A stretch of 64,000 nt of DNA, from NCBI GenBank assembly GCA_021802555.1, contig JAJZRU010000007.1:43697-107696 (forward strand). The letters are read 5' to 3'. Below the pieces are notes generated by a model. That model saw nothing but the letters and a program-made list of their open reading frames with translations, made no database searches and had not been told where the DNA came from. Source of the DNA: Pseudomonadota bacterium (GTDB lineage: Bacteria > Pseudomonadota > Gammaproteobacteria > Burkholderiales > Thiobacillaceae). Shown here piece after piece: positions 30,474-63,054 of this stretch (positions within the stretch are counted from its first letter, which is position 1; every line of letters starts with the position of its first letter). A program made the position numbers and the translations under genes.

Positions 30474-30911
30474 ATGTTTAAAATCCGGTTAACCCCCCGC
30501 GCCCGCCTCTCACGCGGCTTCACGCTTTTGGAGCTCTTGGTGGTGCTGGTGATCATTGGGCTGTTGGTGGGCTATGTGGGGCCCAAGTATTTCGCCCAGG
30601 TGGACAAATCCAAGGTCAAGACGGCCCAGGCGCAGATGAAGGGGTTTGAGGAAGCGCTGGACCAGTATCGTCTGGACGTGGGGCGCTATCCCGGCACCGA
30701 GGACGGGCTCAAGGCCTTAATGCAGGCGCCGCCCAATGCGGTGCACTGGCAGGGGCCCTACCTCAAGAAAACACCGCCTGCCGATCCCTGGGGCAACGCT
30801 TACGTCTACCGCAGCCCAGGCACCAACGGCGCCGATTACGACCTGCTGTCCTATGGCCAGGACGGCAAGCCCGGCGGCGAAGGGCTTGCCGCCGACATCC
30901 CCGCCCCGTAA
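30474..30911 (+). CDS. gspG: Type II secretion major pseudopilin GspG
   Basis: A 145-residue pseudopilin. Prepilin cleavage is expected in SRG|FTLLE after a 15-residue basic leader; Glu5 is present and the hydrophobic helix runs to about residue 38. The C-terminal globular domain has the GspG pattern GRYPGTEDGLKAL, YLKKTPPADPWGNAYVY and YDLLSYGQDGKPGGEG (calcium-binding loop). It is the first gene of an eleven-gene operon under a Pho box. No Shine-Dalgarno sequence precedes the ATG. No prepilin peptidase gene is in the window. Confidence 0.95.
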   Translation: MFKIRLTPRARLSRGFTLLELLVVLVIIGLLVGYVGPKYFAQVDKSKVKTAQAQMKGFEEALDQYRLDVGRYPGTEDGLKALMQAPPNAVHWQGPYLKKTPPADPWGNAYVYRSPGTNGADYDLLSYGQDGKPGGEGLAADIPAP

Positions 30912-30920
30912 GGGCTGGCA

Positions 30921-32102
30921 ATGGAATTCCGCCTGCGTTGTCTTGATGCCCAGGGCACCGTGGTGCAAGTGCCCGTGCAGGCCGCAAGCCTCGAAGGCGC
31001 AAGCCTCGAAGCGCGCCGGCGCGGTCTCACCGTGCTCTCGGCTGCGCGCCTGGGCGCACGCAGCTTAAGCCGCCCGCGCAGTTTCGATCTCGCGCTTTTC
31101 ACCCAGGAACTGCTGGCTCTGCTCAAGGCCGGCCTCAATCTGCTGGAAGCCCTGGAGGCCCTGACGCAAGGCAGCACCCGCCCCGAGGCGCGCAGCCTGC
31201 TGGAGGAAATACTGAATCAACTCCGACAGGGCGAGCGCTTTTCCGTTGCCCTCACGCGGCTGTCCACGCCCCTGCCGGAACTGTTCGTGGCCACCATCCG
31301 CTCGGCCGAGCGCACCGGCGATTTGATCCCCGCCCTGGAGCGCTACCTGGGCTATGCGCGCCAGGCGGACGTGCTGCGCAAGAAGATCGTGTCGGCTTCG
31401 ATTTATCCGCTGCTGCTGGTGGGGGCGGGCAGCCTCGTCACTTTGTTTTTGCTGGGCTATGTCGTGCCGCGCTTCGCCGCCGTCTACCAGGACCGCCAGG
31501 ACAGCATTCCCTTTCTTTCCGGACTCTTGATCCAGTGGGGAACGTTTCTCGATGCCCACGGCGCGGCCTTCGGTCTTGCGGCCCTGGGCGTGGCTGCGGT
31601 GCTGGCCGTGCTCCTGTCGCGTCCTGCCGTGCGCGCGCAGCTGAGCCTGCTCGTGCAACGCCTGCCGGCCTTGGGCGAGAGCCTGCGCAAATTCCAGCTC
31701 ACGCGCTTCTACCGCACCGTCGGCATGCTGCTGGACGGCGGCATCCCCGCGCTGGCCGCCCTGAACCTTGCGCGCGGCCTGCTGCCGCCCGGCCTGCGCA
31801 CCGCGCTGGATGCCGCCGCCAAGGAAATCGAAGCCGGCCAGCCGCTCGCCGGCGCCTTCGCCCGCCACGGCCTCACCACCCCGGTGGCCCTGCGCCTCTT
31901 GCAGGTGGGCGAACAGAGCGGGCGGCTGGCCGACATGCTGGAAGCCGCCGCCGCCTTTCATGAAGAGGAAACCGCGCGCCGCATCGACACCGTAACCCGG
32001 CTTTTGGAGCCGCTGCTCATGGCCGGCATCGGCCTGGGCATCGGCGGCATCGTCGTGCTCCTTTACATGCCCATCTTCGATCTGGCGGGGAGCTTGCAAT
32101 GA
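30921..32102 (+). CDS. gspF: Type II secretion inner-membrane platform protein GspF
   Basis: A 393-residue polytopic protein with two T2SSF repeat domains, each followed by a membrane helix, and a final C-terminal helix (GIGLGIGGIVVLLYMPIFDL). LFTQELLALLKAGLNLLEAL and FYRTVGMLLDGGIPALAAL are the repeated platform motifs. It anchors the GspE ATPase. It starts nine bases after gspG. Confidence 0.94.
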   Translation: MEFRLRCLDAQGTVVQVPVQAASLEGASLEARRRGLTVLSAARLGARSLSRPRSFDLALFTQELLALLKAGLNLLEALEALTQGSTRPEARSLLEEILNQLRQGERFSVALTRLSTPLPELFVATIRSAERTGDLIPALERYLGYARQADVLRKKIVSASIYPLLLVGAGSLVTLFLLGYVVPRFAAVYQDRQDSIPFLSGLLIQWGTFLDAHGAAFGLAALGVAAVLAVLLSRPAVRAQLSLLVQRLPALGESLRKFQLTRFYRTVGMLLDGGIPALAALNLARGLLPPGLRTALDAAAKEIEAGQPLAGAFARHGLTTPVALRLLQVGEQSGRLADMLEAAAAFHEEETARRIDTVTRLLEPLLMAGIGLGIGGIVVLLYMPIFDLAGSLQ

Positions 32103-32118
32103 TCCTGAGAAACCTGGG

Positions 32119-33651
32119 ATGAACGCCCCCCTGCCGCGCTTTGCCATGGAAGCGCTGCATGGGCTGGTGCCCGATTTCGCCGTGCTCGCCTTCCCGCGCG
32201 CCCAGGCCAAGGACTGCCTGGCCGGGCGTGACGAGGACGACTGTTTGTGGCTGGTGGCGCCCGATCCGCCGCCGCGTGCGCTCCTGGAATGGGCCGAGCA
32301 GCACATGGCCGAACCCTACCGATTGGCCCTGGCCGAACTCGCCGACATCCGCGCCTGGCTGGCGCGCCAGGAAGGGGAATTGAAAGCCCTGGACGCCTTC
32401 GGCACCCTGGCCGGCGCTGGCGCGGCGGACAGCGGCGGCGCGCAGGAGCTGAGCCTGGCGGCCATCGGCGAGGACGACAGCCCGGTCATCCGCCTGGTGC
32501 ATTCCACGCTGTACGACGCGCTGCAGGCGGGCGTGTCGGACATCCACCTGGAGAACGACCCCCAGGGCCTGGTCATCAAATACCGCTTGGACGGCGTGCT
32601 CGCCGTGGTGAGCCGAGTGGCCGGCGCCGACATGGCCGAGCAGGCCATTTCCCGCATCAAAGTGATGGCCGAACTGGACATCGCCGAGCGGCGCATTCCC
32701 CAGGACGGGCGCTTCAAGGTGCGGCTGCAGGGGCGCGAGGTGGACTTGCGCGTGTCCATCATGCCCGGCGTGCACGGCGAAGACGCCGTGCTGCGCATCC
32801 TCGATCGCCGCCAACTGGCCGACGAAATCCAGGGCCTGCGCCTGGAGCATCTGGGTTTCGATGCCGGCATCCTCGCCAGCCTCCGCAAGCTTACCCACGA
32901 GCCCTACGGCATGGTGCTGGTGACCGGCCCCACGGGTTCGGGCAAGACCACCACGCTCTATGCGGCGATTTCCGAGATCAACCACGGGCGCGACAAGATC
33001 ATCACCATCGAGGATCCGGTGGAATATCAGTTGCCCGGCGTGCTGCAAATCCCGGTGAACGAGAAGAAGGGCCTGACCTTCGCGCGGGGGCTCAGATCCA
33101 TCCTGCGCCACGACCCCGACAAGATCATGGTGGGCGAGATCCGCGACACCGAGACTGCGCAGATCGCCGTGCAGTCCGCCCTCACCGGGCATCTCGTGCT
33201 CACCACCGTGCATGCCAACAACGTCTTCGACGTGCTCGGGCGCTTCCTGCAGCTGGGCGTGGACCCCTACAACCTGGTGTACGCGCTCAACGGCATCCTG
33301 GCCCAGCGCCTGGTGCGCATGAACTGCGGCCATTGCAGCGTCGACGAAGTTCCCGCGCCCGAGCTCATGGCCGCCTCGGGCATTACGGATGAGGCTGGCT
33401 TTCGCTTCCGCGCCGGGCGCGGCTGCGCCCACTGCCGCGGCACCGGCTACAAGGGGCGCCAGGCGGTGGCGGAGATGCTGGTGATGAACGACGGGCTGCG
33501 CGAAATGATCGTCGCGCGCGAGCCCATGAGCCGCATCAAGGAAGAGGCCCGGCGCGGGGGTACGCACAGCCTGCGCGCGGCCGCGGTCGAGTTCGTCCGG
33601 GCCGGACGCACCACCCTGGAGGAGATCAACCGTGTCACGTTTGTGGCCTGA
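32119..33651 (+). CDS. gspE: Type II secretion ATPase GspE
   Basis: A 510-residue hexameric secretion ATPase. Walker A GPTGSGKT is near residue 270, the Asp box is in ITIEDPVEYQL, Walker B is in IMVGEIRDTETA, and the His box is in LTTVHAN. A tetracysteine zinc module (CGHC near 403 and CAHC near 436) is intact, as in GspE/PilB. The N-terminal N1E domain is divergent. It overlaps the next gene by 20 bp. Confidence 0.95.
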   Translation: MNAPLPRFAMEALHGLVPDFAVLAFPRAQAKDCLAGRDEDDCLWLVAPDPPPRALLEWAEQHMAEPYRLALAELADIRAWLARQEGELKALDAFGTLAGAGAADSGGAQELSLAAIGEDDSPVIRLVHSTLYDALQAGVSDIHLENDPQGLVIKYRLDGVLAVVSRVAGADMAEQAISRIKVMAELDIAERRIPQDGRFKVRLQGREVDLRVSIMPGVHGEDAVLRILDRRQLADEIQGLRLEHLGFDAGILASLRKLTHEPYGMVLVTGPTGSGKTTTLYAAISEINHGRDKIITIEDPVEYQLPGVLQIPVNEKKGLTFARGLRSILRHDPDKIMVGEIRDTETAQIAVQSALTGHLVLTTVHANNVFDVLGRFLQLGVDPYNLVYALNGILAQRLVRMNCGHCSVDEVPAPELMAASGITDEAGFRFRAGRGCAHCRGTGYKGRQAVAEMLVMNDGLREMIVAREPMSRIKEEARRGGTHSLRAAAVEFVRAGRTTLEEINRVTFVA

Positions 33652-34315
33652 AGCCCTGGCCGTGACGCTCGCCCCCGGCACGGCCCGCTTGGGCCGCGCC
33701 GAGTCCAAGCGCAGCGCGCACGAAGGCTGGGAGGGCGCCCTGGAAGCGCTGGAAGCAGCCCTCCAAGGCAAGCGCGGGCGGGTCGCGCTGACGCTCTCCA
33801 ACCGCTTTTTCCGCCTGCACCTCACTGCGCCGCAGCCCGGCGGGCTGCGCGCGCGCGAGACCGAAAGCTTCTTGCGCCACAGCCTGGAGGCTACCTTCGA
33901 AGAAGACTTCGGCGCCTGGCAGTTGCGCTGGCAACCGCGCCCGCCGGGCGAGCCGCTCGCGGTGTGCGCCTTTCCGACCGCGCGGCTCACCGAGCTCAGG
34001 CAACGCTTGGGCCCGCGCCTGCGCCTGGCAAGGCTCCTACCCTGGTTTGCCGCCGTACCTCTGGCACCTTCCGCTTGCGTGGTGCAGGCCGAAGGCGAGC
34101 ATCTCACCGTGCTGGCCCAGTGCAAGGGCCGCTGGCGTCTGTTCACCCAGCTGCGGGCCGCCGGCGACGCCTTGGCCACCTTGCGCCAGCGCATGGAGCT
34201 CCTGGACGCCTGTCCCGGTGCGCCCTGGGGGCCGGTGCGCGTGCAGGGGCTGACCCCCGGTCTTGCTTTGCCGCAAGGTTGGAGCCACAGCCCGGCCATG
34301 GCCATGCCGGCATGA
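33632..34315 (+). CDS. PilM/GspL-cytoplasmic-domain-like protein of the T2SS
   Basis: A 227-residue protein without signal or membrane segment, starting at GTG with GGAGGAG seven bases upstream. Sequence similarity to known GspL is weak. The order (ATPase, this gene, then two single-helix proteins and a Pro-rich protein, then the secretin) matches pilM-N-O-P-Q of type IV pili, and GspL consists of a PilM-like and a PilN-like part. It is therefore read as the actin-fold half of a split GspL that links GspE to the membrane. No intact ATP-binding motif is visible. Confidence 0.6.
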   Translation: MSRLWPEALAVTLAPGTARLGRAESKRSAHEGWEGALEALEAALQGKRGRVALTLSNRFFRLHLTAPQPGGLRARETESFLRHSLEATFEEDFGAWQLRWQPRPPGEPLAVCAFPTARLTELRQRLGPRLRLARLLPWFAAVPLAPSACVVQAEGEHLTVLAQCKGRWRLFTQLRAAGDALATLRQRMELLDACPGAPWGPVRVQGLTPGLALPQGWSHSPAMAMPA

Positions 34316-34316
34316 C

Positions 34317-34823
34317 ATGGCCACGCTCGCTCGCTATTACGACTTCGCCCACCGCCTGCGCCCGCCGCCGGCGGCTTGGCTGCTGCTGGCCGGCGGCAGT
34401 CTGGCGCTCGCTGCCGGGCTGTGGCAATACCGCGAGCTGCGCGCCGCCGTCGCCCAGCGTCAGGCGCAGGTGAGTGCCGCCCTTCCGGCCTCGCGCCCCA
34501 AGCCTGCCGCCGCGCTGGATGCCGAAGACAGCCAGGAACTGGCACGCGCCCAGGCCTTGCTGGGACGCGACTGGCCGGGCCTGTTTCGTGCCCTGGAATC
34601 GGTGCCCCACAAAGACATCGCCTTGCTCTCCGTGGCTGCCTATCCCGCCCGCAGCCGCGTGGTGCTGGAGGCCGAGGCGCGCACGCCCCAGGCCATGCTC
34701 GCTTACCTGCAGGCCCTGCAGAACGCCGGGCCGTTGCGGCCGCTGCGCCTGGTGCGCCACGAAGTGCGCCAGGACGTGGCCGAGCATCCGGTGAAATTTC
34801 AGCTCGAGGGCGGCTGGCCATGA
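34317..34823 (+). CDS. PilN/GspL-periplasmic-like T2SS protein
   Basis: A 168-residue bitopic protein: a short cytoplasmic N-terminus (MATLARYYDFAHRL), one membrane helix (AWLLLAGGSLALAAGLWQY, about 20-40), a coiled-coil stretch and a ferredoxin-like periplasmic domain (IALLSVAAYPARSRVVLEAEA). This is the layout of PilN and of the GspL periplasmic half. The start is one base after the previous stop; the end overlaps the next gene by 4 bp. The role in the assembly platform is inferred from layout and position. Confidence 0.6.
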   Translation: MATLARYYDFAHRLRPPPAAWLLLAGGSLALAAGLWQYRELRAAVAQRQAQVSAALPASRPKPAAALDAEDSQELARAQALLGRDWPGLFRALESVPHKDIALLSVAAYPARSRVVLEAEARTPQAMLAYLQALQNAGPLRPLRLVRHEVRQDVAEHPVKFQLEGGWP

Positions 34824-35326
34824 CGTCCTGGCATCGGTACGCATTTTGGCTCTCACGCCCAGGATGGCCGGGACTGTTGGGCTTGGCCTTGCTGGCGGCG
34901 GCACTGGCCTTGCTGGCCTTCGTGTTGCCCCGGGAAGAGGGGCGGTTCGCCAAGTTGCGAGCCGCCCCTGCCCTCACGGTCCTGCGACTGACAGCGCCGC
35001 CGCCCTCGCCCTTGGCCGGCTTCCTGGCCGAGCGGGACGAGGTGCGGGTGCTGGGCGCGCTCTTCCGCGCCGCTCACGCCGCCGGTTTGCAACTCGATCA
35101 AGGCGCCTATCGCGTCACGCGCGAGCGCCACGGCCGCATCGCCGTGCTCACCATCACATTGCCGCTGACGGGGAGCGACACGGCGGTACGCGCGTTTCTC
35201 GCCGCCATCGTGGCCGCCACCCCGGGCCTGGCGATCGAATCCCTGGTGTTGCGCCGGCCCGACATCGCCACGACCGACATTACGGCAGACGTGCGCCTGG
35301 CCTTGTTTCTCAGGGTGGCCTCGTGA
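34820..35326 (+). CDS. PilO/GspM-like T2SS protein
   Basis: A 168-residue bitopic protein with membrane helix LLGLALLAAALALLAFVLP (about 19-37) and a periplasmic alpha/beta domain containing ERHGRIAVLTITLPLTGSDTAVRAFLAAI, the pattern of PilO/GspM ferredoxin-like folds. The next gene begins inside its stop codon (GTGA). It presumably dimerises with the preceding protein. Confidence 0.6.
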   Translation: MTSWHRYAFWLSRPGWPGLLGLALLAAALALLAFVLPREEGRFAKLRAAPALTVLRLTAPPPSPLAGFLAERDEVRVLGALFRAAHAAGLQLDQGAYRVTRERHGRIAVLTITLPLTGSDTAVRAFLAAIVAATPGLAIESLVLRRPDIATTDITADVRLALFLRVAS

Positions 35327-35808
35327 AGCCCGCCCTGCGCCGCCTGCTGCTCTTCGGCGCGCTGGCCGCCACCCTGGCTGCTGTGTATGAGATGAATCAG
35401 AGCGGTGAAGACGACAGCGTGCAAGTCGTCGCCCGCCCGCGCCCGCCCAAAATGGTTCTCGGCAGCGAGGCCGCGCCGCCGCCTGCAGCGCCCCGCGCAC
35501 TGCAGGCGCGCTTCGCTGCAGCGGCGCGCGATCTCTTCCCCAGCCAAACCTGGTACATCCCGCCGCCGCCGCCCAAACCCGTGCCGCCCCCGCCCCCGCA
35601 GGCGCCGCCCTTGCCGTTCCGCTTTCTGGGCCTGTGGGAGGAGGGGGGGCAGACCGCCGTGTTCGTGAGCGACGGGCCGCGCAATCTCATCATCCAGGCC
35701 GGCGACACCGTGGACGGCCGCTACAAGGTGGAAGCCATCGGCCCGGGTGCGGTGCGCCTGGTCTATCTGCCGCTTAATCAAACCCAAACCCTGAGTTTCG
35801 GCGAATGA
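35323..35808 (+). CDS. PilP/GspC-like T2SS protein
   Basis: A 161-residue protein starting at GTG: an N-terminal membrane segment (LRRLLLFGALAATLAAVYEM), a proline-rich periplasmic spacer (PPPPPKPVPPPPPQAPPLP, about 85-105) and a C-terminal beta domain (FRFLGLWEEGGQTAVFVSDG, then YKVEAIGPGAVRLVYLPLNQ) resembling the HR domain of GspC/PilP that contacts the secretin. It lacks a PDZ or coiled-coil C-terminus. It overlaps gspD by 4 bp. Confidence 0.65.
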   Translation: MKPALRRLLLFGALAATLAAVYEMNQSGEDDSVQVVARPRPPKMVLGSEAAPPPAAPRALQARFAAAARDLFPSQTWYIPPPPPKPVPPPPPQAPPLPFRFLGLWEEGGQTAVFVSDGPRNLIIQAGDTVDGRYKVEAIGPGAVRLVYLPLNQTQTLSFGE

Positions 35809-37742
35809 AACCCCGCATCCTGCTCCCTTCTTTGCTGATCGCCATCGTGCTGTCCGGCTGCGCCGCCCAGAAAAACTTCCGCCAGGGCAACGAGCTGCTG
35901 CGCCAAGGCAAGGTGGAAGAAGGACTTGACAAGCTCAAAAGCGCCGAGCAGAAGGCCCCGGATAACGTCGAATACAAGACCACGCTGTACCGCGAACGGG
36001 AGCGCCAGATCCAGCGCCTGCTGGCGGAGGCCGAAACCTTGCGCACGCAAGGCGAACTGGACAAGGCAGAGGAGCTTTATCGCCGCGTGCTCAAGCTCGA
36101 CCCGGACAATCCGCGCGCGCCGCAGGGGCTCGCCGCCATCGCCAACCAGCAGCGGGCGCAGACCTTGGTGAAGGCGGCTCAGGAAGAGGAAAAGCGCGGG
36201 GGCGGCGAGGCGGCGCGCAAGAAGCTGCGCCAGGCCCTGGCGCTGGACGCCGGCAATGGCGCGGCACGTCGCGCGCTGCGGACGCTGGAGGAGAAACAGG
36301 GCAGCCTGGGGATTAGCGAGCCCCGCTTGTCGCCCGCTTTCGACCGCCCCGTCACCCTGGAATTCCGCGATGCGCCGCTCAAATCCGCGCTCGATGTGCT
36401 GGCCCGTTACGGACAGTTGAATTTCGTGCTGGACAAGGACGTGCGGCCGGACACCAAGGTCACGGTGTTCGCGCGCAACCTGCCCATCCGCGAAGCGCTG
36501 GACATGATCCTGGTGACCGGCGGCCTGGCCAAGAAGGTGCTGACGCCAACCACCTTGCTGCTCTATCCCAACATCATTTCCAAACAGCGCGAATACCAGG
36601 ATCAGGTGGTGAAGGCCTTCTATCTGGGCGATGCCGACGGCAAGGCCACGTTGAATCTGCTGAGGTCGCTGCTCAAGATCAACGACATCTATCTCGACGA
36701 GCGCCTCAACATGATCTATCTGCGCGGCACCCCGGAGCAGGCCAGCCTGGCGGAGAAAGTCTTGGCGCTGCAAGATCAGCCGGCGCCCGAAGTGGTGCTG
36801 GACGTGGAGGTGCTGGAAGTCAACCGTTCGCGCCTGACCGATCTGGGCCTGCAACCGCCCACCCAGTTCACCGTGCTGACGCCGGTGCCCACCACCACCA
36901 GCAGCACCACGGGCGGGGTCATCGTCACCACCACCTCGGGCGCCGCCCAGCTCACCCTGGACAATCTGCGCCGTCTCACCGGGGCGCAGATCGGCATCAA
37001 CAACCCGGTGCTGAATTTGCTCAAGCAGGACGGCGACGTGAATCTTCTGGCCAACCCGCGCATCCGCGTGGTGAACAAGGAGAAGGCCAAGATCCTCATC
37101 GGCGACAAGGTGCCGGTCATCACCACCACCGCCACCGCCAACGTGGGGGTGTCGGAGTCGGTGAACTACCTGGACGTGGGCCTCAAGCTGGAAGTGCAGC
37201 CCGAGGTCTATCCCGACAACGACGTGGGCATGCACGTCAACCTGGAGGTGAGCAACATCACCCAGCAGATCAAGGGCAGCAACGGCAGCCTGGTGTACCA
37301 GATCAGCACGCGCAGCGCCTCGACCACCCTGCGCCTGAAGGACGGCGAGACCCAGGCCCTGGCCGGCCTCATCCAGGACAGCGAAAACGACAGCGCCACC
37401 GGCCTGCCTTTCCTGAGCGACATTCCGCTGGTGGGGCGTTTGTTCGCCGACAAGAGCCGCAAGCGCGTGAAGGACGAGATCGTGCTGCTCATCACCCCGC
37501 ACATCGTGCGCAACCTGGAGCCCGCGCCCCTGGCCGCGACCGAGTTCCCGGCCGGCACGGAGGGCGGCGTCGGCGCCGCCTTCCAGCGTCCCGGCCCGCC
37601 GGAAAACCCGGTGCGTCGTCTGCCCATCGCGCCGCTCCCGGCCGCCGCGAACGAAGGCTCGCCGAGCCCCGCATCCGAAGTGCCGCGGCCCGTGCTGCCG
37701 GGGCGCATCCAGCCGCCGCCCGCGCTCTCGCCCGCCCCGTGA
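35805..37742 (+). CDS. gspD: Secretin GspD with lipobox and TPR N-terminus
   Basis: A 645-residue outer-membrane secretin. The signal peptide ends in a lipobox (VLSGC), so it is probably a lipoprotein that may not need a separate pilotin. Residues about 25-165 form TPR-like repeats (YRRVLKLDPDNPRAPQGLAAI), unusual for GspD. N0/N1-type domains follow (LEFRDAPLKSALDVLARYG), then the secretin core (VPVITTTATANVGVSESVNY through LPFLSDIPLVGRLFADKS). The tail is proline-rich. TPR-secretin fusions occur in some T2SS-like and pilus loci. Confidence 0.9.
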   Translation: MKPRILLPSLLIAIVLSGCAAQKNFRQGNELLRQGKVEEGLDKLKSAEQKAPDNVEYKTTLYRERERQIQRLLAEAETLRTQGELDKAEELYRRVLKLDPDNPRAPQGLAAIANQQRAQTLVKAAQEEEKRGGGEAARKKLRQALALDAGNGAARRALRTLEEKQGSLGISEPRLSPAFDRPVTLEFRDAPLKSALDVLARYGQLNFVLDKDVRPDTKVTVFARNLPIREALDMILVTGGLAKKVLTPTTLLLYPNIISKQREYQDQVVKAFYLGDADGKATLNLLRSLLKINDIYLDERLNMIYLRGTPEQASLAEKVLALQDQPAPEVVLDVEVLEVNRSRLTDLGLQPPTQFTVLTPVPTTTSSTTGGVIVTTTSGAAQLTLDNLRRLTGAQIGINNPVLNLLKQDGDVNLLANPRIRVVNKEKAKILIGDKVPVITTTATANVGVSESVNYLDVGLKLEVQPEVYPDNDVGMHVNLEVSNITQQIKGSNGSLVYQISTRSASTTLRLKDGETQALAGLIQDSENDSATGLPFLSDIPLVGRLFADKSRKRVKDEIVLLITPHIVRNLEPAPLAATEFPAGTEGGVGAAFQRPGPPENPVRRLPIAPLPAAANEGSPSPASEVPRPVLPGRIQPPPALSPAP

Positions 37743-38206
37743 AGACGCGCGGCTTCACCCTCATCGAGCTGGTGGTCACCCTGGCCATCATCGCCCTGCT
37801 CGCCACCCTGGCCGTGCCCATGGCGCAGCTGGCGGTCGAGCGCCACAAGGAGAGCGAACTGCGCGAGGGGCTGCGCCAGATCCGCGGCGCCATCGATGCC
37901 TACCACCAGGCCTGGCTGGACGGGCGCATCGAGAAGAAGGTGGACGAGGCGGGCTATCCGCCCAATCTCGATGTGCTGGTGAACGGGGTGAAGGATGCCA
38001 GCTCGCCCAAGGGCGCGAAGATCTATTTCCTGCGCCGCCTGCCGCGCGATCCCTTCGCGTCCGCCGACCTGTCGGCCGACGAGACCTGGGGGCTGCGCAG
38101 CTACGAGAGCCCGCCCGATGCACCCGCGCCCGGCAAGGATGTCTTCGACGTCTACGCGCCCGAGGATGCCAAGGGCTTGAACGGCGTGCCTTATCGGGAA
38201 TGGTAG
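37739..38206 (+). CDS. T2SS pseudopilin (GspG-like), second
   Basis: A 155-residue pseudopilin with a very short leader: KTRG|FTLIELVVTLAIIALLATLAVP, Glu5 present. The body keeps a GspG-like scaffold (LREGLRQIRGAIDAYHQAW, then RRLPRDPFA and YAPEDAKGLNGVPYREW) but lacks the calcium-loop sequence of the first GspG. The start is GTG inside the gspD stop. It is probably a minor pseudopilin of the tip or shaft. Confidence 0.85.
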   Translation: MKTRGFTLIELVVTLAIIALLATLAVPMAQLAVERHKESELREGLRQIRGAIDAYHQAWLDGRIEKKVDEAGYPPNLDVLVNGVKDASSPKGAKIYFLRRLPRDPFASADLSADETWGLRSYESPPDAPAPGKDVFDVYAPEDAKGLNGVPYREW

Positions 38207-42971: not shown

Positions 42972-43388
42972 ATGTTTGCCTGCCGACCTCTCGCCCTGAC
43001 GCTCGCTTTGGCCGCTTGCCTGGGGGCGGGCCGGGCCCAAGCCGATCCCGCCGACGGGAGTTTCTCTGCCGGGCTGGTGGTTGAATGGCCGTGGTCGGGC
43101 TTCGCCATAGCCTCGGTACCCCCGCCGGTGCCGCCCCCTTACGTTTATGCCCAGGAGCCGATCAACGCGGCCTGGATCGGTTTGCCGGGAGGCGTTGCGC
43201 CCGTCGGTTCCGCCAGCCCGGTACCGGAGCCCCGTCGCTGGGCCACGCTGCTGACCGGATTGGGGCTGGTGATCCTGGCCCTGCGCCGGCGCATCAATCA
43301 CCAAGTGCGCGTCAGGGATGGAGTCACTCGCCCAGCAGCGCGGCTTTCAGGCTTTGCTGCACCGGATGATCGCCCAGCCAGATCTTGA
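42972..43388 (+). CDS. Small PEP-CTERM-like exported protein with extended tail
   Basis: A 138-residue protein: signal peptide (LALTLALAACLGAGRAQA), a Pro-rich middle (VPPPVPPPYVYAQEP) and a PEP-CTERM pattern VPEPRRWATLLTGLGLVILALRRR ending near residue 109. Normal PEP-CTERM proteins stop right there; this one reads on for about 29 residues across the 3' end of the convergent gene. Either the stop was lost or a frameshift occurred. GGGGGAT upstream serves as ribosome site. Confidence 0.65.
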   Translation: MFACRPLALTLALAACLGAGRAQADPADGSFSAGLVVEWPWSGFAIASVPPPVPPPYVYAQEPINAAWIGLPGGVAPVGSASPVPEPRRWATLLTGLGLVILALRRRINHQVRVRDGVTRPAARLSGFAAPDDRPARS

Positions 43389-56165: not shown

Positions 56166-56203
56166 GTCAAGGCAACCCCTATAGAGATTCCTACCAAAGC
56201 CGA

Positions 56204-58039
56204 ATGAACATGAACCCCATCCGAATTTCCGCCGCCGCTCTTGCTCTTGCGGCGTTGCTGGCGGCCAGCCCGGCCTTGGCCTGGTGGAACGGCGACTGGT
56301 CGAGCCGCCAGTCTGTCACCCTAGATGCCGGTGCCAAGGGCGCCAACCTCAAGGCCGACCTGGAGAACGTGCCGGTGCTGATCCGTTTGCACTCAGGCAA
56401 TTTCGATTTTCTCTCCGCCAACCCCGACGGCTCCGATCTGCGCTTCGTGGCGGGCGACGACAAGACGCCGCTCAAGTTCTACATCGAGAAATTCGATCCC
56501 GTGAACCAATTGGCGGTGATCTGGGTGCAGGTGCCCAAGCTCGCCGCCGGCAAGGCGAACACGATCTGGCTCTATTCGGGCAACGACAAGGCGGCCGCCG
56601 CCGGCGACGCCAAGGCGGTGTTCGATGCGCATCAGATTGCGGTCTACGACTTCGCCCAGGCGGGCCTGCCCAAGGACGTCACCGCCAACGCCAACAACGC
56701 CTCGGCGTCCAGCGCAAGCCAGGATGCCAACGCCATCATCGGCGCCGGGGCCCGTTTCAACGGCAGCCAGGATATCCAGGTTCCCGCCTCGGCCTCGCTG
56801 GGCATTCCCTCCGGCGGGCAGTTCACCTGGTCGGCCTGGATCAAGCCCGCGGCGGCCGGGCAAAACGCCGTGCTGTTGAGCCGGGGCGACTTGAGCGTGG
56901 GGCTGGATGCCGCGGGCGTCTATGCAAAACAAGGCGCCGTCACGCTGCAAGCGCCGCTGGGCAGCGGGGGTTGGCACCAGGTCGCGCTGACCGCCGGCCC
57001 GGCGGGATACACGCTTTATGTCGACGGCACTGCCGCCGCGACTGCGCCCGGCAGCGTCGCCGCGCTCAGCGTGCCGTTGACCTTGGGAGCGAATGCGCAG
57101 GGCAGCGAGGGCTACCAGGGCGACATGGATGAAGTGGAGCTGTCGAATGTCGCGCGCCCGGCAGACTGGATCGCGCTGGCGGCGAAAGGCCAGGGGCCGG
57201 AGTCCGCGTTCATCCAGGTGGGGCAGGCGCAGTCGTCCGACAGCGGCGGCGAAGCTTCCTACTTCGGCACCATCCTGCGTTCCGTGACCCTGGACGGCTG
57301 GGTGGTGATCGGCCTGCTCGCCGTCATGTCGGCCATCAGCTGGGTGGTGATGGTGAGCAAGGGCCTGGTCATCGGCCGCATGCAGAAGGACAACGAGCGC
57401 TTCATGGCCTCGTTCCGCCAGCTTGCCGCCAATCCGGGCGCGCTCGACCGGGACGAGGCGGGCGACGAAGGCGATGCGCAGGTCTCCGAGTTTTCCAAAG
57501 CTCTTTTCGGCCAGCACGACCATTACCAAAGCTCGCCCATCTACCGCATCTATCATGTCGGCGTGCAGGAGCTGAAGCATCGCTTCGGCACCGCCGACCC
57601 GCGCCAGCTCGCCAACAAGACGCTCACGCCCCAGGCCATCGACGCCATTCGCGCCGCGCTGGACGGCAGCCTGGTGCGCGAGAACCAGAAGATCAACAGC
57701 CTCATGGTGCTGCTCACCATCGCCATATCCGGCGGGCCGTTCCTGGGGCTGCTGGGCACGGTGGTGGGGGTGATGATCACTTTCGCCGCCATTGCCGCCA
57801 CGGGCGACGTGAACGTCAACGCCATCGCCCCCGGCATCGCCGCCGCCCTGGTGGCCACCGTCGCCGGCCTGGCCGTCGCCATCCCCGCGCTGTTCGGCTA
57901 CAACTACCTGGTCAGCCGGGCCAAGGACATCAGCGCGGACATGCACGTGTTCGTGGACGAGTTCATCGGCCGCATCGCCGAGACCTATGCCGCCACCGTG
58001 CAGGCCGCGCCCCAGCTCGCCGCCGTGCGCAACCACTGA
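56204..58039 (+). CDS. exbB: ExbB/TolQ proton channel fused to periplasmic DUF2341-LamG domains
   Basis: 611 residues in one frame. A signal peptide (ISAAALALAALLAASPALA) leads into a DUF2341 domain (about 27-140: WWNGDWSSRQSVTL, NTIWLYSGN) and a LamG/concanavalin-like domain (about 180-340: FTWSAWIKPAAAGQ, GWHQVALTAGPAGYTLYVDG). A first membrane helix (WVVIGLLAVMSAISWVVMV) follows near residue 365, then a cytoplasmic loop and the MotA/TolQ/ExbB core with two helices (LLTIAISGGPFLGLLGTVVG; AAALVATVAGLAVAIPALFG). ATG 56162 is an alternative start overlapping tpsA. Confidence 0.9.
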   Translation: MNMNPIRISAAALALAALLAASPALAWWNGDWSSRQSVTLDAGAKGANLKADLENVPVLIRLHSGNFDFLSANPDGSDLRFVAGDDKTPLKFYIEKFDPVNQLAVIWVQVPKLAAGKANTIWLYSGNDKAAAAGDAKAVFDAHQIAVYDFAQAGLPKDVTANANNASASSASQDANAIIGAGARFNGSQDIQVPASASLGIPSGGQFTWSAWIKPAAAGQNAVLLSRGDLSVGLDAAGVYAKQGAVTLQAPLGSGGWHQVALTAGPAGYTLYVDGTAAATAPGSVAALSVPLTLGANAQGSEGYQGDMDEVELSNVARPADWIALAAKGQGPESAFIQVGQAQSSDSGGEASYFGTILRSVTLDGWVVIGLLAVMSAISWVVMVSKGLVIGRMQKDNERFMASFRQLAANPGALDRDEAGDEGDAQVSEFSKALFGQHDHYQSSPIYRIYHVGVQELKHRFGTADPRQLANKTLTPQAIDAIRAALDGSLVRENQKINSLMVLLTIAISGGPFLGLLGTVVGVMITFAAIAATGDVNVNAIAPGIAAALVATVAGLAVAIPALFGYNYLVSRAKDISADMHVFVDEFIGRIAETYAATVQAAPQLAAVRNH

Positions 58040-58051
58040 ACGGAGCGTGCC

Positions 58052-58456
58052 ATGAAGGCCCAGGACGATCAGAAGCCCTACGACGACATCAACATCACGC
58101 CCATGCTGGACCTGGCCTATGTGCTGCTGGTGATTTTCATCATCATGACCACGGCCTCGGTGCAGGGCATCAAGGTGAACTTGCCCAAGGCCAGCTCGGC
58201 GCCCAGCCTGGCCAAGCCCAGCACCAAGGCCATCACCATCGCCGCCGACGGGCAGATCTACCTCGACGCCTATCCCGTGAGCATGACCGAGCTGGAGGAC
58301 CGCCTGCGCCAGGCCCAGGCGGCCAATCCGGATCTTCCCGTGGTGATCAAGGGCGATGCCGACGTGCAGTACAAGAAGGTCATCGAGGTGATGGATCTCC
58401 TGGGCCGCCTGGGCATCACCCAACTGGGCCTGGTGACCCAGAAGATCGTCAAATGA
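58052..58456 (+). CDS. exbD: ExbD/TolR-type proton channel subunit
   Basis: A 134-residue protein: a short cytoplasmic start (DDINITPMLDLAYVLLVIFI) with the essential membrane Asp in MLDLAYV, one helix, and a periplasmic domain (KAITIAADGQIYLDAYPVSM). It forms the energising complex with the preceding ExbB and the following TonB. The gene starts 12 bp after exbB. Confidence 0.93.
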   Translation: MKAQDDQKPYDDINITPMLDLAYVLLVIFIIMTTASVQGIKVNLPKASSAPSLAKPSTKAITIAADGQIYLDAYPVSMTELEDRLRQAQAANPDLPVVIKGDADVQYKKVIEVMDLLGRLGITQLGLVTQKIVK

Positions 58457-58466: not shown

Positions 58467-59123
58467 ATGAGCGAGGCCCTCAAGCCCTGGCAGCGACAGG
58501 CGCCCAAGCTGGCCGCCGGAGCCTTCATCCTGCTGGTGATGACGGGCATGGCGCTGTTCGTGCATCACATGCTCAACAGCAGCGGCGAGGGAAGGAAACC
58601 GCTGATCCAGCAGATCACCCTGGTCAGGCCGCCGCCGCCCCCGCCGCCCAAGGTCGAAGAAAAGCCGCCGCCCAAGGAGGAAGTCAAGATACCCGAGCCC
58701 AAGCCCCTGGAGTCCCCCAAGCCCGACAATGCGCCGCCCGCCAAGAACCTGGGGGTGGATGCCCAGGGCGGTCCCGGCTCCGACAACTTCGGTCTGGTCG
58801 GCAACAAGGGCGGCCAGGACATCATCGGCGGCCAAGGCGGCGGCAGCCGCTTCGGCTGGTACTCGACCGTGGTGCAGCAGGGCATTTATGCCGCGCTGCA
58901 GAAGGAAAAGGCCCTGCGCGAAAGCAGCTACCGCGTGGTCGTCAAGCTCTGGCTGGACAAGACCGGCCATGTCGAGCGCGTGGAACTGGGCGGCAGCACC
59001 GGCAGCACCCAAATTGACGAAGCGCTGAAAGCTGCCTTGCAGCGCATGAAACCCATGAGCGAGGCGCCGCCCGACGACTTGCCCCAGCCGGTGCAGATCC
59101 GCGTCACCTCGCGTCGGGACTGA
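58467..59123 (+). CDS. TonB-like energy-transducing protein
   Basis: A 218-residue protein with an N-terminal membrane helix (AAGAFILLVMTGMALFVHHM), a Pro/Lys/Glu spacer (PPPPPPKVEEKPPPKEEVKI) and a C-terminal TonB-fold domain (SSYRVVVKLWLDKTGHVERVE, then IDEALKAALQRMKPM). A Gly-rich stretch lies between (GNKGGQDIIGGQGGGSRFG). No TonB-dependent receptor is encoded in the window, so its outer-membrane partner is unknown. Confidence 0.85.
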   Translation: MSEALKPWQRQAPKLAAGAFILLVMTGMALFVHHMLNSSGEGRKPLIQQITLVRPPPPPPPKVEEKPPPKEEVKIPEPKPLESPKPDNAPPAKNLGVDAQGGPGSDNFGLVGNKGGQDIIGGQGGGSRFGWYSTVVQQGIYAALQKEKALRESSYRVVVKLWLDKTGHVERVELGGSTGSTQIDEALKAALQRMKPMSEAPPDDLPQPVQIRVTSRRD

Positions 59124-59164
59124 TGCCAACCGAACCAACAAACTCCCTAAATCCGCTACCCGCC

Positions 59165-60703
59165 ATGAAACGCAAAACCGCTCTCACCACCGCTTTGCTC
59201 GTCGCCCTGGGATTGGCCGGCCCGGCCCAGGCCGACGAGCGCGAGCAGCTCGAACTGGTGCGCCAGACTACCCTCAACCTCATCAAGCTGCTGGTGCAGC
59301 AGAAGGTGCTCACCCAGGAGGCGGCCGATCAGTTGATCCGCCAGGCCGAGGCCACGGCCAAGGCCGAAGTCGCCAAGAAAGAGCAGCTCGCCGGCGGCGC
59401 CAACGTCGTGCGCGTGCCCTACATCCCCGAAACGGTGAAGAACGAAATCCAGGACAACATCAGGCAGGAGGTTCTCGCCCAGGCCAAGACCGAGCGCTGG
59501 GGCGAGCCGGATGCCTATCCCTCCTGGCTGCACCGCTTCACCTGGTATGGCGACATCCGCCTGCGCTACCAGCGCAACATCTTCCCGGCCGGCAACACGC
59601 CGCTGGCCACGCTGCAAGCCTATGGCCCGACTTCCCTGGTCACCGATTCCACCGTGGATCAGAACCTCACGCGCGTGCGCGCCCGCCTGGGCGCCAAAAT
59701 CCAGGTCAGCGACAACGTGGTCGCCAATGTGCGGCTCGCCACCGGCAACCTGGTCACGCCGGTTTCCACCAACCAGACCGAGGGCATGTACGGCAACTAC
59801 CAGACCGTGCTCGATCTGGCCTATCTGCAGGCCACGCCTTATCCCTGGCTGCGGCTCACGGGCGGCCGTTTCCAGAATCCTTTCTTCCACACCGATCTGG
59901 TGTGGGCGCCGGATCTGAATTTCGACGGCTTCGCCGGCAACGCGGAGTACTGGCCGACGCACCACCTCAAGGGCTTCCTGACCGCCGGCCTATTCCCCTT
60001 GCAATTCGTCTATCCCTCGGACCTGGTCCAGGCCAGGGACAAGTGGCTGTACGGCCTGCAGGGCGGGCTGGACTGGTATTTCGCGGATGAATCCAAGGCC
60101 ACGCTCGCTGCGGCGCTCTACGACTACCGGCACGTGGAGGGCGTACCGAACCCGTCGCTCGGTTCCCATGTATATGACGCGACCGCGCCGCAATTCCGCC
60201 AGAAAGGCAACTCGGTCATGTTCATCAACTACCCGGGCGACCCCACCCTCTATGGCCTGGCCTCCAAATTCCGCGAGTTCAATGTCACCGGCCGCGTCGA
60301 CATCGGCGCGTTCGATCCCGTCCATGTCGTGCTCACCGGCGACTATGTCCGTAACGTCGGCTTCAGCCGCAGCGACATCCTGGCCCGCACCGGCCAGGAC
60401 ATCGCGCCCCAGGTCAACGGCTACCTGGGCAGGATCGCGGTGGGCAAGCCCAAGATCCAGTACCCCGGCGATTGGCAGACCTATCTCGCGTACAAATATC
60501 TGGAGCGCGACGCCGTGCTGGACGCCTTCGCCGACCCGGATTTCCACCTCGGCGGCACCGATGCCAAGGGCTATATCCTGGGCGGCAGCTACGGCGTGGC
60601 CAGGAACACCTGGCTCAATCTCAAATGGCTCTCGGCCGACCAGATCAGCGGCCCGCCGCTGTCCATCGACGTCTTGCAACTGGATTTGAATTCCCGATTC
60701 TGA
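59165..60703 (+). CDS. Putative outer-membrane porin with coiled-coil N-terminus
   Basis: 512 residues. A signal peptide (ALTTALLVALGLAGPAQA) precedes a helical segment (about 25-75, LVRQTTLNLIKLLVQQKVLTQEAADQLIRQ) like an SLH/trimerisation stalk, then a beta-barrel (WYGDIRLRYQRNIF onward) with alternating aromatic strands. The last residue is Phe (DLNSRF), the BamA recognition signature. This matches the putative-porin family found with ExbBD-TonB genes. Start 59165 is chosen for the signal peptide; the upstream ATG 59123 overlaps tonB. Confidence 0.85.
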   Translation: MKRKTALTTALLVALGLAGPAQADEREQLELVRQTTLNLIKLLVQQKVLTQEAADQLIRQAEATAKAEVAKKEQLAGGANVVRVPYIPETVKNEIQDNIRQEVLAQAKTERWGEPDAYPSWLHRFTWYGDIRLRYQRNIFPAGNTPLATLQAYGPTSLVTDSTVDQNLTRVRARLGAKIQVSDNVVANVRLATGNLVTPVSTNQTEGMYGNYQTVLDLAYLQATPYPWLRLTGGRFQNPFFHTDLVWAPDLNFDGFAGNAEYWPTHHLKGFLTAGLFPLQFVYPSDLVQARDKWLYGLQGGLDWYFADESKATLAAALYDYRHVEGVPNPSLGSHVYDATAPQFRQKGNSVMFINYPGDPTLYGLASKFREFNVTGRVDIGAFDPVHVVLTGDYVRNVGFSRSDILARTGQDIAPQVNGYLGRIAVGKPKIQYPGDWQTYLAYKYLERDAVLDAFADPDFHLGGTDAKGYILGGSYGVARNTWLNLKWLSADQISGPPLSIDVLQLDLNSRF

Positions 60704-60710: not shown

Positions 60711-61364
60711 ATGTATACCCGTTTCGTGCTTTTGGCCTTACTGGCTTCAGGCCTCGCGGCCTCCGCGCAGGCCGACACGGCGAGCCGCGAGAAGCAGTTC
60801 CTGCGCCGCCTGCAGATCATGCAGCAGCAGATGAACGAGCAGAACGCCGCCCTGCGCAAGGAGCGTGACGAGCTTGCCGCCCAACTGGCGGCCGCCCAGG
60901 CCGGCGTGGCCAGCCTCAAGGAGAAAAACCAAAAAGAGCTCGGCAAGGCGCAAGGCCTGGAGAGAACCCTGCAAGTACAGCAGCGCGACAGCGCCGCCCT
61001 CACCCAGCAGTTGGCGCAAGCCCGGCAGGCGCTCGCCGCTCTGCGCCAGGAACACGAAAGCACGCTGGCAACGCTGAAAGCGAGCGAAGGCGACAACCGC
61101 CGGCTCAAGGCTACGGGCGCCGAACAGCGCGGGCAAATTACCGATTGCGAGCACAAGAACCTGCTGCTCTACCAAGCCAATACGCAGTTGCTGGAGAAAT
61201 ACAAAAATAAGACCGTGTGGGACGCGCTGGCGCAAAAAGAGCCCTTCACCGGCATCGAGAAAGTCCGCATAGACAACGTCTTGCAGGAATACCGGGACAA
61301 GCTGGATACCGACCGCGTCAAGCCGCAGGCCGCCGCGCCGGCGGGGGGCGCGGCGCAGAGATAA
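60711..61364 (+). CDS. Periplasmic coiled-coil protein of unknown function
   Basis: 217 residues: a signal peptide (VLLALLASGLAASAQA), then about 100 residues of heptad-patterned coiled coil (LQIMQQQMNEQNAALRKERD onward), a short CEHKNLLLYQANTQLLEKY segment and a Pro/Ala tail. No enzymatic domain is seen. It is the last gene of the run starting at tpsB and follows the porin after 7 bp. It may act as a periplasmic spacer or scaffold for the ExbBD-TonB-porin set; this is inference only. Confidence 0.75.
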   Translation: MYTRFVLLALLASGLAASAQADTASREKQFLRRLQIMQQQMNEQNAALRKERDELAAQLAAAQAGVASLKEKNQKELGKAQGLERTLQVQQRDSAALTQQLAQARQALAALRQEHESTLATLKASEGDNRRLKATGAEQRGQITDCEHKNLLLYQANTQLLEKYKNKTVWDALAQKEPFTGIEKVRIDNVLQEYRDKLDTDRVKPQAAAPAGGAAQR

Positions 61365-61381
61365 GCACGACGGCAGCCTAT

Positions 61382-61394
61382 AGCCCGAACGGCT
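61382..61394 (+). promoter_or_regulatory. Fourth CCCGAACGG motif, upstream of the phosphoesterase
   Basis: AGCCCGAACGGCT, the most complete copy, lies 122 bp before the phosphoesterase ATG. The TGTCA half-site and -10 found at the fixed distance in the other three copies are absent. Two other elements nearby are CGTTAAG-TGTT-TGCTAAG (61401-61418, 11-bp period) and TAGATT (61451-61456). Confidence 0.45.
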
Positions 61395-61515
61395 GGCGGT
61401 CGTTAAGTGTTTGCTAAGCAACGCGCCATGGGCGGGAAATCTCGGCCCCTTAGATTGCCCTTAGCGCTGTTCCGCAGCGCTGAACCGTCCATCCATAACC
61501 CGCTTAGGAGTCACC

Positions 61516-63054
61516 ATGCGACGCAACCTTCTTTCCGATTTCGCCCGCAAATTGCCGCTGGCCCTGGCCATGGGCGCGGCCCTGCAAGTTCCCATGTCCG
61601 CCGCGCAAGCCGACGACACCGCCACCCCCATCAAACACGTGGTGGTGATCTTCCAGGAGAACGTGTCCTTCGACCATTACTTCGCCACCTATCCGCTGGC
61701 CGCCAACCCGGCCGGGGAGCCGAAGTTCGTGGCCATGCACGGCACGCCCACGGTCAACGGCCTCACCCGATATCTGCGCGAGCACAACCCCAACGCCGCC
61801 CAGCCCTTCCGCCTGGGCCGCTCGCAGGCCATGACCTGCGACATGGACCATGAGTACACCGCCGAGCAGAAGGCCTTCAACGGCGGGCTGATGGACAAGT
61901 TCGTGGAGTACACCGGCGCGAACTACAACCACTGCGATCCCGCCCAGGTCATGGGCTATTACGACGGCAACACCGTCACCGCCATGTGGAACTATGCCCA
62001 GCATTTCGCCATGAGCGACAACTCCTACGGCACCACCTTCGGCCCGTCCTCGCCGGGCGCGATCAACCTGGTCTCCGGCCAGACCCATGGCGCCTCGCCC
62101 GAGATAAGTGACGTGGTGGTCAACGGCACCGACATCAGCGATGCCGATCCCGGCTACGACGACTGCTCCAGCGGCAAGACCTTCACCATGTCCGGCACCA
62201 ACGTGGGCGACATGCTCAACGCCCAGCACATCACCTGGGGCTGGTTCCAGGGTGGTTTCCGTCCCACGGGCATGAGCAACGGCAAGGCCGTATGCGGCGC
62301 CAGCAGCAAGAACATCGCCGGTGCCAGCGTAGGCGATTACAGCGCCCATCACGAGCCCTTCCAGTACTACGCCTCCACCGCCAACCCGCACCATCTGGCG
62401 CCCAGCTCCGTGGCCATGATCGGCCGCACCGACCAGGCCAACCACCAGTACGACCTGCAGGACTTCTGGGCCGCGGCCGACAGCGGCCATCTGCCCGCGG
62501 TGAGCTTCCTCAAGGCCAAGCGCTACCAGGACGGCCATGCCGGCTACTCCGATCCGCTGGACGAGCAGACCTTCCTGGTGCAGACCCTCAACCGCCTGCA
62601 GAAGCTGCCCGACTGGAAGAACACCGTCGTCGTCATCTCCTATGACGATTCCGACGGCTGGTACGACCACGTCATGAGCCCCATCGTCAACCAGTCCGGC
62701 GATCCCGCCTACGACGCCCTGCTCGGTTCCGGCCTGTGCGGCCAGACCGCCTCCGGCGCCGCGTCGGATCAGTGCGGCTACGGCCCGCGCCTGCCGCTCA
62801 TGGTCATCTCTCCCTGGGCCAAGAAGAACTTCGTCGATCACCACGTGACCGATCAGTCCTCCATCCTGCGCTTCATCGAGGACAACTGGCATCTGGGCCG
62901 CATAGGCGGCGGTTCCTTCGACGCCAAGGCCGGCTCCCTGGAAGGCATGTTCGACTTCCACCGCAGTCCGCGCATGACGCCCGTGATCCTCGACCCGGCC
63001 ACGGGCACCCGCGCCGTCGGCCTGCGCGACACGGACGGCGAAGACCATTCGTAG
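61516..63054 (+). CDS. Secreted phosphoesterase (AcpA / phospholipase C family)
   Basis: 512 residues. The N-terminus has Arg-Arg (MRRNLLSDF) and a hydrophobic stretch (LPLALAMGAALQVPMSAAQA), a possible Tat or Sec signal. The phosphoesterase motif is VVVIFQENVSFDHYFATYP, equivalent to ENRSFDHYFG; further landmarks are HDLDHE-like CDMDHEYT, SYDDSDGWYDHVMSPI and GPRLPLMVISPWAKKNFVDH. The family (PF04185) covers AcpA acid phosphatases and phospholipases C that release phosphate or phosphorylated headgroups. The substrate cannot be told. It could be exported by the T2SS at 30474-39173. Confidence 0.88.
   Translation: MRRNLLSDFARKLPLALAMGAALQVPMSAAQADDTATPIKHVVVIFQENVSFDHYFATYPLAANPAGEPKFVAMHGTPTVNGLTRYLREHNPNAAQPFRLGRSQAMTCDMDHEYTAEQKAFNGGLMDKFVEYTGANYNHCDPAQVMGYYDGNTVTAMWNYAQHFAMSDNSYGTTFGPSSPGAINLVSGQTHGASPEISDVVVNGTDISDADPGYDDCSSGKTFTMSGTNVGDMLNAQHITWGWFQGGFRPTGMSNGKAVCGASSKNIAGASVGDYSAHHEPFQYYASTANPHHLAPSSVAMIGRTDQANHQYDLQDFWAAADSGHLPAVSFLKAKRYQDGHAGYSDPLDEQTFLVQTLNRLQKLPDWKNTVVVISYDDSDGWYDHVMSPIVNQSGDPAYDALLGSGLCGQTASGAASDQCGYGPRLPLMVISPWAKKNFVDHHVTDQSSILRFIEDNWHLGRIGGGSFDAKAGSLEGMFDFHRSPRMTPVILDPATGTRAVGLRDTDGEDHS

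Follow-up and report, generated by a model that had tools for sequence, protein, structure and literature searches.

A type II secretion system, a PstS-like protein and a TonB-linked two-partner secretion cassette in a Thiobacillaceae genome: a likely counterpart of the phosphate-responsive hxc locus of Pseudomonas

The closest described systems to the locus reported here are from Pseudomonas. According to the cited sections, the region PA0677-PA0699 of P. aeruginosa encodes the Hxc type II secretion system (T2SS), the alkaline phosphatase LapA, PdtA, PhdA, PdtB, ExbB2, ExbD2 and TonB4, together with a putative porin (PA0696), PA0697, a YbjN-like protein and a PpiC protein, and is under VreI and PhoB (PMC2729926, PMC7035377, PMC4971064). 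The control by PhoB is published for the corresponding Pseudomonas genes, and the E. coli pho box is described as usually replacing the -35 region (PMC4971064). ExbB2-ExbD2-TonB4 is presented as a putative TonB system, still uncharacterised (PMC7035377). In P. fluorescens SBW25 the PstS-like protein Psp is Pi-induced (Pi, inorganic phosphate), its secretion is mainly HxcR-dependent, and its gene has the Hxc genes upstream and the gene of a 4083-residue haemagglutinin-domain protein downstream (PMC2225411). Here, a gene run at 30474-61364 on the + strand of a 64,000-nucleotide stretch, hereafter the window, is compared with these systems. The window (67% GC) comes from a Thiobacillaceae bacterium (GCA_021802555.1, contig JAJZRU010000007.1, positions 43,697 to 107,696), and the locus lies on one contig of a 2.77-Mb genome of 48 contigs.

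We propose, with a probability of roughly 0.55, that this locus is the counterpart of the Pseudomonas hxc-psp-pdt-exbB2D2-tonB4 locus, and that it is predicted to be induced by phosphate starvation. The proposal draws on gene content, gene order in relatives, invariant PstS-type ligand residues and a recurrent Pho-type promoter geometry in the lead regions, all of which are evident at the level of sequence. Genomes are numbered G and loci from a collection of named sequences L; the best 80 of the 563 named loci were kept.

From the PstS-like gene onward the locus recurs as a cassette. In the window it comprises genes for a predicted PstS-like secreted binding protein (41257..42663), a TpsB transporter (44130..45815; POTRA_2 PF08479, ShlB PF03865), a TpsA of 3447 aa with a TPS (two-partner secretion) domain, DUF3739 and a conserved C-terminal motif (45822..56165), an ExbB with DUF2341 and laminin-G-like domains (56162..58039; PF10102, PF13385, PF01618), ExbD (58052..58456; PF02472), TonB (58467..59123; PF13103, TIGR01352), a Porin_5 porin (59123..60703; PF16930, 2.1e-163) and a coiled-coil protein whose start reads as signal-peptide-like (60711..61364; conserved in 21 of 21 relatives), all on the + strand. 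The DUF2341-ExbB (E <= 1e-100) was detected in 22 of 101 genomes, the own genome included; G044, in which only a fragment stands where a contig ends, was excluded from the carriers. The order PstS-like, TpsB, TpsA, ExbB, ExbD, TonB, Porin_5, coiled-coil was the same in all 21 relatives with ExbB, and because of this identity the gene run is more than chance. A PEP-CTERM gene preceded the PstS-like gene in 19 of the 21 and an EpsA gene preceded the PEP-CTERM gene in 16; where one or both were unseen, the contig (G031, G010, G097) or the fetched stretch (G074, G053) had ended. Relatives of the last pilin gene of the window T2SS (pilin 4) stood between EpsA and the PEP-CTERM gene in G065, G076 and G089, and adjoined the cassette also in G074, G053 and G076. 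A phosphoesterase gene, which in the window begins at 61516 (+ strand) downstream of the coiled-coil gene, was found in none of the 21 relatives within the fetched stretches around the cassette. An earlier note on this DNA had counted it as part of the grouping; it was dropped as a member of the unit.

Among the best 80 named loci were those of Thiobacillaceae and Hydrogenophilales metagenome-assembled genomes, Sulfuricella, Sulfuriferula, Methylococcales, Solimonas and Steroidobacter, and also of Burkholderia, Trinickia, Bradyrhizobium, Afipia and others. Of the named loci, 61 extend at least 4.5 kb to either side of ExbB; the TPS genes together with ExbB-ExbD-TonB-Porin_5-coiled-coil were present in 59 of these, the remaining two being short of a TPS match only; at least eight named loci duplicate loci of the G genomes (L089 is that of G121).

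Some variation around the cassette was also seen. In the genus-mates G001 and G002 (L087, L088) the contig ends inside the locus, after the PstS-like/PEP-CTERM-like protein 2 region and after pilin 4, respectively; a DUF2341-ExbB was not found elsewhere in these two genomes, where loss and assembly gap are indistinguishable. In 15 of 22 loci (e.g. L044, L066) a gap of about 0.8-1.1 kb sets the coiled-coil gene apart from the Porin_5 gene and holds a reading frame that by eye resembles ankyrin repeats; the window has no such frame. In the G085 locus and in L156 ExbD was matched twice in tandem rather than once.

The PstS-like family is divergent, its members in relatives being 23-45% identical to the window protein. 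In an alignment of 21 sequences (the window protein and those of 20 of the 21 relatives; the G054 gene, which spans two fetched stretches, was omitted) the invariant residues were G101, S102, D157, R244, S248, G249 and T250. We take S102, D157, R244, S248, G249 and T250 to be the equivalents of the E. coli PstS ligands Ser38, Asp56, Arg135, Ser139, Gly140 and Thr141. A profile search of the PDB matched PstS chains over about 70 residues, part of the length (best 1.1e-5), and with a structure model (predicted local distance difference test, pLDDT, 83.8) Foldseek returned 17 chains at E <= 0.001, all 17 labelled phosphate-binding, some of them putatively. Among 120 listed homologues, 36 carry PF12849 and three are named phosphate substrate-binding. 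A periplasmic-binding fold with phosphate ligand residues is thus predicted from model and sequence. No ABC-transporter match, as a linked PstCAB system would give, was obtained among the proteins of 30474-63054, and the canonical pstS genes of the genome are on other contigs. Canonical pstS genes were noticed close by in two other genomes: in G010 (C95:49-978) the coiled-coil gene is followed by one at a distance of about 230 nt, and in G207 (C1:1589356-1590276) one lies on the opposite strand, about 1 kb upstream of gspG.

A Pho-type site leads the locus. At 30434..30467 (+ strand) a 7-4-7 direct repeat is followed after 10 nt by a -10-like TAGCAT, and gspG starts 40 nt from the first base of this site; with a score of 16, it was the only + strand match in the window to reach 15. 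The consensus used for scoring was what we take to be that of E. coli, in which 10 nt separate the pho box from the -10. In G049, G054 and G057 the first scan for Pho boxes had revealed direct repeats, near-perfect and 54-58 nt upstream of EpsA, again 10 nt from a TATGCT-like -10. Sixteen lead regions were then defined, the EpsA upstreams of ten genomes without a T2SS upstream and six gspG upstreams, one of the latter belonging to the downstream T2SS of G097; G042, G052 and G207 lie outside the 16. At spacing 10, nine of the 16 reached a score of 15, compared with five of 475 control upstreams (Fisher 5e-12), and at spacings 5-9 and 11-16 this was so for 0-5 of the 16. As a positive control, 18 of 25 pstS loci had a site, with a looser half-site and a longer stretch allowed. 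A phoB gene is present in the own genome. Together with the ligand residues and the predicted fold, the Pho-type promoter gives new sequence support to the phosphate link that the earlier note had drawn. No Pho box was found at the EpsA and PstS-like starts of the window. Two further candidates were rejected: the site before the window PEP-CTERM gene (local p 0.007), with a poor second half-site, and that before TpsB (local p 0.037), on the other strand.

Behind this site lies a T2SS of eleven genes (30474-39173), the number given in the earlier note. In order they are gspG, gspF and gspE, then four small genes, then gspD and finally three pilin genes. Its core consists of the major pseudopilin GspG (30474..30911; TIGR01710, 164 bits, cut-off 88.85; PF08334), the platform protein GspF (30921..32102; PF00482, 2.7e-50; TIGR02120, 246.6 bits, under the cut-off of 424), the ATPase GspE (32119..33651; PF00437, 6.8e-124) and a GspD-type secretin with a TPR N-terminal part (35805..37742; PF00263, 1.1e-45); GspG alone exceeds its NCBIfam equivalog cut-off. 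The secretin is followed by the GspG-like pseudopilins 2 (37739..38206; N_methyl; TIGR01710, 38.3 bits, under cut-off) and 3 (38210..38677; N_methyl; PF08334, 21.2 bits, cut-off 21) and the weak pseudopilin-like protein 4 (38664..39173; sub-cut-off pilin matches only, relatives in nine loci). The four small inner-membrane genes had been called PilMNOP-like. By family scans, the PilM/GspL-like gene (33632..34315; tblastn relatives in two loci) and the PilN-like gene (34317..34823; tblastn relatives in five loci) had no match and are named by position. The third, PilO-like gene (34817..35326; relatives in five loci) matches T2SS protein M subtype b barely over the cut-off (PF10741, 22.3 bits, cut-off 21.7), and the fourth, PilP/GspC-like gene (35323..35808) has sub-threshold matches to PilP and GspC only (TIGR03021, 16.9 bits, cut-off 34.65; GspC_delta, 13.6 bits, cut-off 150). 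Apart from the protein M match, these genes are below the cut-off of every GspC and GspL model. A clean PilMNOP label is weakened by these results, and the system is, judged by its family matches, less pilus-like than had been assumed.

The T2SS and the cassette are linked in several relatives, and the lack of co-occurrence that would have spoken against the grouping was not what was found. A secretin related to the window GspD (E <= 1e-60) was detected in 56 of the 101 genomes, namely in 21 of the 22 cassette genomes (G076 excepted) as against 35 of the 79 without cassette, uncorrected for kinship. Distances were counted in the 101 genomes and a class sample of 274, with the own genome left out; the class-sample counts may be low, as scoring for ExbB and GspD was limited there to the top four candidates of each genome. 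ExbB and GspD were at most 20 kb apart in nine of the 24 genomes with both (binomial p about 5e-10 for an assumed 2% chance of closeness). The T2SS stood directly upstream, in the same strand and order, in G042 (seen from gspE onward, the contig ending before gspF), G088, G065, G085, G089 and G207, which belong to six families. It was downstream in G097 and G121 (secretin of G121 only 30% identical) and downstream on the opposite strand in G032, and in G055 ExbB and GspD were 34 kb apart. In the named loci L093 and L097, T2SS genes follow right after the coiled-coil gene.

The Pseudomonas analogy of the earlier note was borne out by two lines of comparison. In Burkholderia lata (L160), genes for VreA-like, extracytoplasmic-function (ECF) sigma and FecR-like proteins are followed by TpsB, ExbB(DUF2341)-ExbD-TonB-porin-coiled-coil and then PpiC. 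This is the published PA0674-PA0699 layout, and therefore the comparison with Pseudomonas rests on related genes; the likeness to P. aeruginosa and Hxc itself was judged by published layout, none of the best 80 of 563 named relatives being titled P. aeruginosa. Matches to B. lata VreI or VreR were found in 25 of the best 80 named loci, and in L160, L150, L157, L159, L162 and Bradyrhizobium the TPS-ExbBD-TonB-porin module stands beside Vre-type regulators, often with PpiC after it. With the P. aeruginosa PUMA3/hxc-pdt locus (PA0674-PA0701), as the cited sections describe it, the window shares a T2SS, a TPS pair, ExbB-ExbD-TonB, a porin and a further protein, which in P. aeruginosa stand in one Pi-responsive locus (PMC2729926, PMC7035377, PMC4971064). 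The window differs in that TpsB precedes TpsA, in having EpsA, a riboswitch and PEP-CTERM genes, and in that the scanned locus proteins include neither a FecR nor an ECF-sigma protein, although the helix-turn-helix of EpsA gave a weak sigma-region-4 match. Its T2SS looks to be of another kind than Hxc, which is known here by description only. The second line is the SBW25 order hxc-psp-pflu2428, in which a T2SS, a PstS-like exoprotein and a giant haemagglutinin-domain protein succeed each other (PMC2225411); taken with the window order, it follows that the order T2SS, PstS-like, TPS occurs in both lineages. Psp is described as a DING protein (PMC2225411), whereas the window protein lacks a DINGGG start after its signal peptide, and a DING identity was rejected. 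Among the matches listed in the open-licence literature, whose titles and abstract starts were covered, the grouping was not found described outside the Pseudomonas-type locus. The distinct version of the system that the earlier note had suspected is partly supported: the sequences point to a related phosphate-linked T2SS-TPS-TonB grouping, with EpsA added and the phosphoesterase removed.

What appears to be new in this grouping is a tie between DUF3739 and ExbB and a conserved motif at the end of TpsA. Across relatives TpsA has 3288-3731 residues, with starts as called in this analysis. DUF3739 near its C-terminus occurred in exactly the 22 of 101 genomes with the DUF2341-ExbB. In the class sample DUF3739 was present in 19 of 274 genomes (one under the cut-off) and ExbB in 13, all 13 among the 19; the two are thus not strictly reciprocal there. 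After DUF3739 comes a low-complexity linker and then a short motif, approximately PSF(I/L)(T/S)VEV(L/I)GFG, mostly within 30 residues of the end. It was found in 58 of 61 tails (51 of 54 distinct ones, at least seven genomes being counted twice; G076, L093 and L143 miss it). The pattern, fitted after the tails had been inspected, matched 189 of 12200 shuffled tails and, elsewhere in these proteins, 10 of 1583 stretches. The motif presumably resembles a TonB box, and the TpsA tail is therefore a candidate client of the linked TonB. No TonB-dependent receptor was matched by Pfam among the locus proteins scanned, whereas HxuC of the haem-haemopexin system HxuCBA is such a receptor. The likeness to HxuCBA, as described, lies in a TPS pair joined to a nutrient receptor (PMC4873976).

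The Porin_5 protein is the other candidate partner of the TonB complex. Its model is a barrel of about 16 strands with a helical N-terminal part (pLDDT 76.9; predicted template modelling score 0.66). A sequence profile gave no meaningful relative in the PDB, and 50 of 957 structural matches comprised OmpM1 (best), chitoporins, DcaP, AlgE and general porins.

Several observations weigh against a phosphate-regulated counterpart of the Pseudomonas locus. The 475 promoter controls are the starts of mechanical open reading frames in the same loci, the spacing test was written after the Pho sites had been noticed and with an assumed E. coli consensus, and six of the 16 lead regions come from one genus. 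The lead boxes are of the CTGTCAT type and mostly unlike the boxes that pstS usually has in these genomes (CTGAAAT/CTGTAAT). Of the genome's own two pstS genes, L185 carries a related site (score 16) and L192 does not (only 12), the same-genus G002 has no Pho-type site before gspG (score 11), and degenerate Pho boxes across the window show no excess (8 versus 10.3 expected). Pfam gave no match to the window PstS-like protein itself, and one of its 120 listed homologues is named copper(I)-binding. No likeness to a phosphate porin appeared in the 50 of 957 structural matches of Porin_5, and a role as phosphate-selective porin is unsupported. Finally, in 15 of the 24 genomes with both, T2SS and cassette are more than 20 kb apart or on separate contigs.

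A different account, which we consider doubtful, is that the locus is a PEP-CTERM-type system for biofilm matrix or surface display, in which EpsA and cyclic di-GMP (c-di-GMP) control a giant adhesin with an energiser, the PstS-fold protein binds another anion or is a structural matrix protein, and phosphate starvation is at most one input among several. EpsA, a gene overlooked in the earlier note, is an XrtB/PEP-CTERM-associated LuxR-type regulator (39361..40137; TIGR03020, 202 bits, cut-off 170), and a PEP-CTERM gene follows it in all 16 relatives with EpsA, with pilin 4 between in three. Between the two genes in the window, 40236-40325 is by its match a c-di-GMP-I-GGC riboswitch aptamer (RF03167, 62.9 bits, 1.8e-12, cut-off 59) with c-di-GMP or a related dinucleotide as predicted ligand, and it is followed by PEP-CTERM protein 1 (40375..41205; PF07589). 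Riboswitches before the PEP-CTERM gene also occur in G001, G088, G074 and G055. All 23 other genomes tested have exosortase genes, which in several of them lie on the same contig; in the genus-mate G001 there are two, of which one is truncated by the end of its contig. EpsA and PEP-CTERM proteins are what the window shares with known exosortase/PEP-CTERM systems (TIGR03020), but its own genome gave no exosortase match (PF09721) despite these genes. The claim that a riboswitch was added to the system holds for the window, yet at the gathering threshold only three of 18 cassette relatives scanned, plus G001, have one in this place (G032 has a borderline match at another). PstS ligand residues invariant at 23-45% identity to the window protein, Pho-type promoters in the lead regions and the published PhoB control of the corresponding Pseudomonas genes (PMC4971064) also argue against this account.

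It is quite improbable, in our view, that a general-purpose T2SS and a separate TPS-ExbBD-TonB cassette have become independent neighbours by chance, an explanation to which the related GspD in 35 of 79 relatives without the cassette and the separation in 15 of 24 genomes would lend themselves. Set against it are the nine of 24 genomes with both within 20 kb and the several layouts observed (upstream in six families, downstream in G097, G121, L093 and L097, and on the opposite strand in G032), the co-occurrence of cassette and T2SS (21 of 22 versus 35 of 79, kinship uncorrected) and the same place being occupied by Hxc in Pseudomonas, as far as the cited section describes it (PMC2225411).

If the locus is the phosphate-starvation-induced counterpart that we favour, its working may be depicted as follows: PhoB would start transcription from gspG, and the surface part would be adjusted by EpsA together with c-di-GMP acting through the riboswitch. 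The phosphate-binding protein would leave the cell by the T2SS, just as Psp of P. fluorescens is secreted mainly by Hxc. The giant TpsA would reach the surface by way of TpsB and may there keep the binding protein and matrix close to the cell. Proton-motive force would pass from ExbB-ExbD-TonB to an outer-membrane part; as TonB partner, the short motif conserved at the TpsA C-terminus is the likeliest, Porin_5 being the alternative.

The gene kinds listed in the earlier note (T2SS, PstS-like, TpsB/TpsA, ExbB-ExbD-TonB, porin and phosphoesterase) were all identified, and its single-strand run stood: all named genes are on the + strand, the sole exception in the run being a chalcone-isomerase-like gene (43324-43980, minus strand; PF16036). 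Between the PstS-like and TpsB genes is also that of the small PEP-CTERM-like protein 2 (42972..43388, + strand; weak PEP-CTERM models, no Pfam match). The start positions of the PilP/GspC-like, EpsA and PEP-CTERM-like protein 2 genes were set in this analysis. To the left of the locus are the flagellar genes fliF, fliI, fliL, fliM, fliR, flhA and flhF (window 4456-19535), a glutamyl/glutaminyl-tRNA synthetase gene and tRNA-Val.

The boldest reading that the evidence allows, speculative and rather unlikely as we judge it, is a TonB-powered TPS. A proton-motive ExbB-ExbD-TonB complex would grip a TonB-box-like peptide at the periplasmic C-terminus of a TpsA of 3,300-3,700 residues and drive its export, tension or release; its ExbB bears the lectin-like DUF2341/laminin-G domain, and the whole would be coupled to T2SS export of an extracellular phosphate-binding protein. 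If true, this would be a TonB system with a secreted fibre as its client, not a TonB-dependent receptor, and would span Burkholderiales to Bradyrhizobium and, by published layout, Pseudomonas.

For the proposed counterpart of the Pseudomonas locus, the findings mean that an exbB2-exbD2-tonB4-type layout occurs widely and is linked with a single kind of TpsA, that with DUF3739, and that the C-terminal motif of TpsA is a concrete candidate partner which makes the role of the TonB system testable. The comparison suggests two regulatory schemes for the same phosphate-linked grouping, a Vre sigma factor or EpsA with c-di-GMP, and perhaps different kinds of T2SS, which would point to T2SS, binding protein and fibre as one unit.

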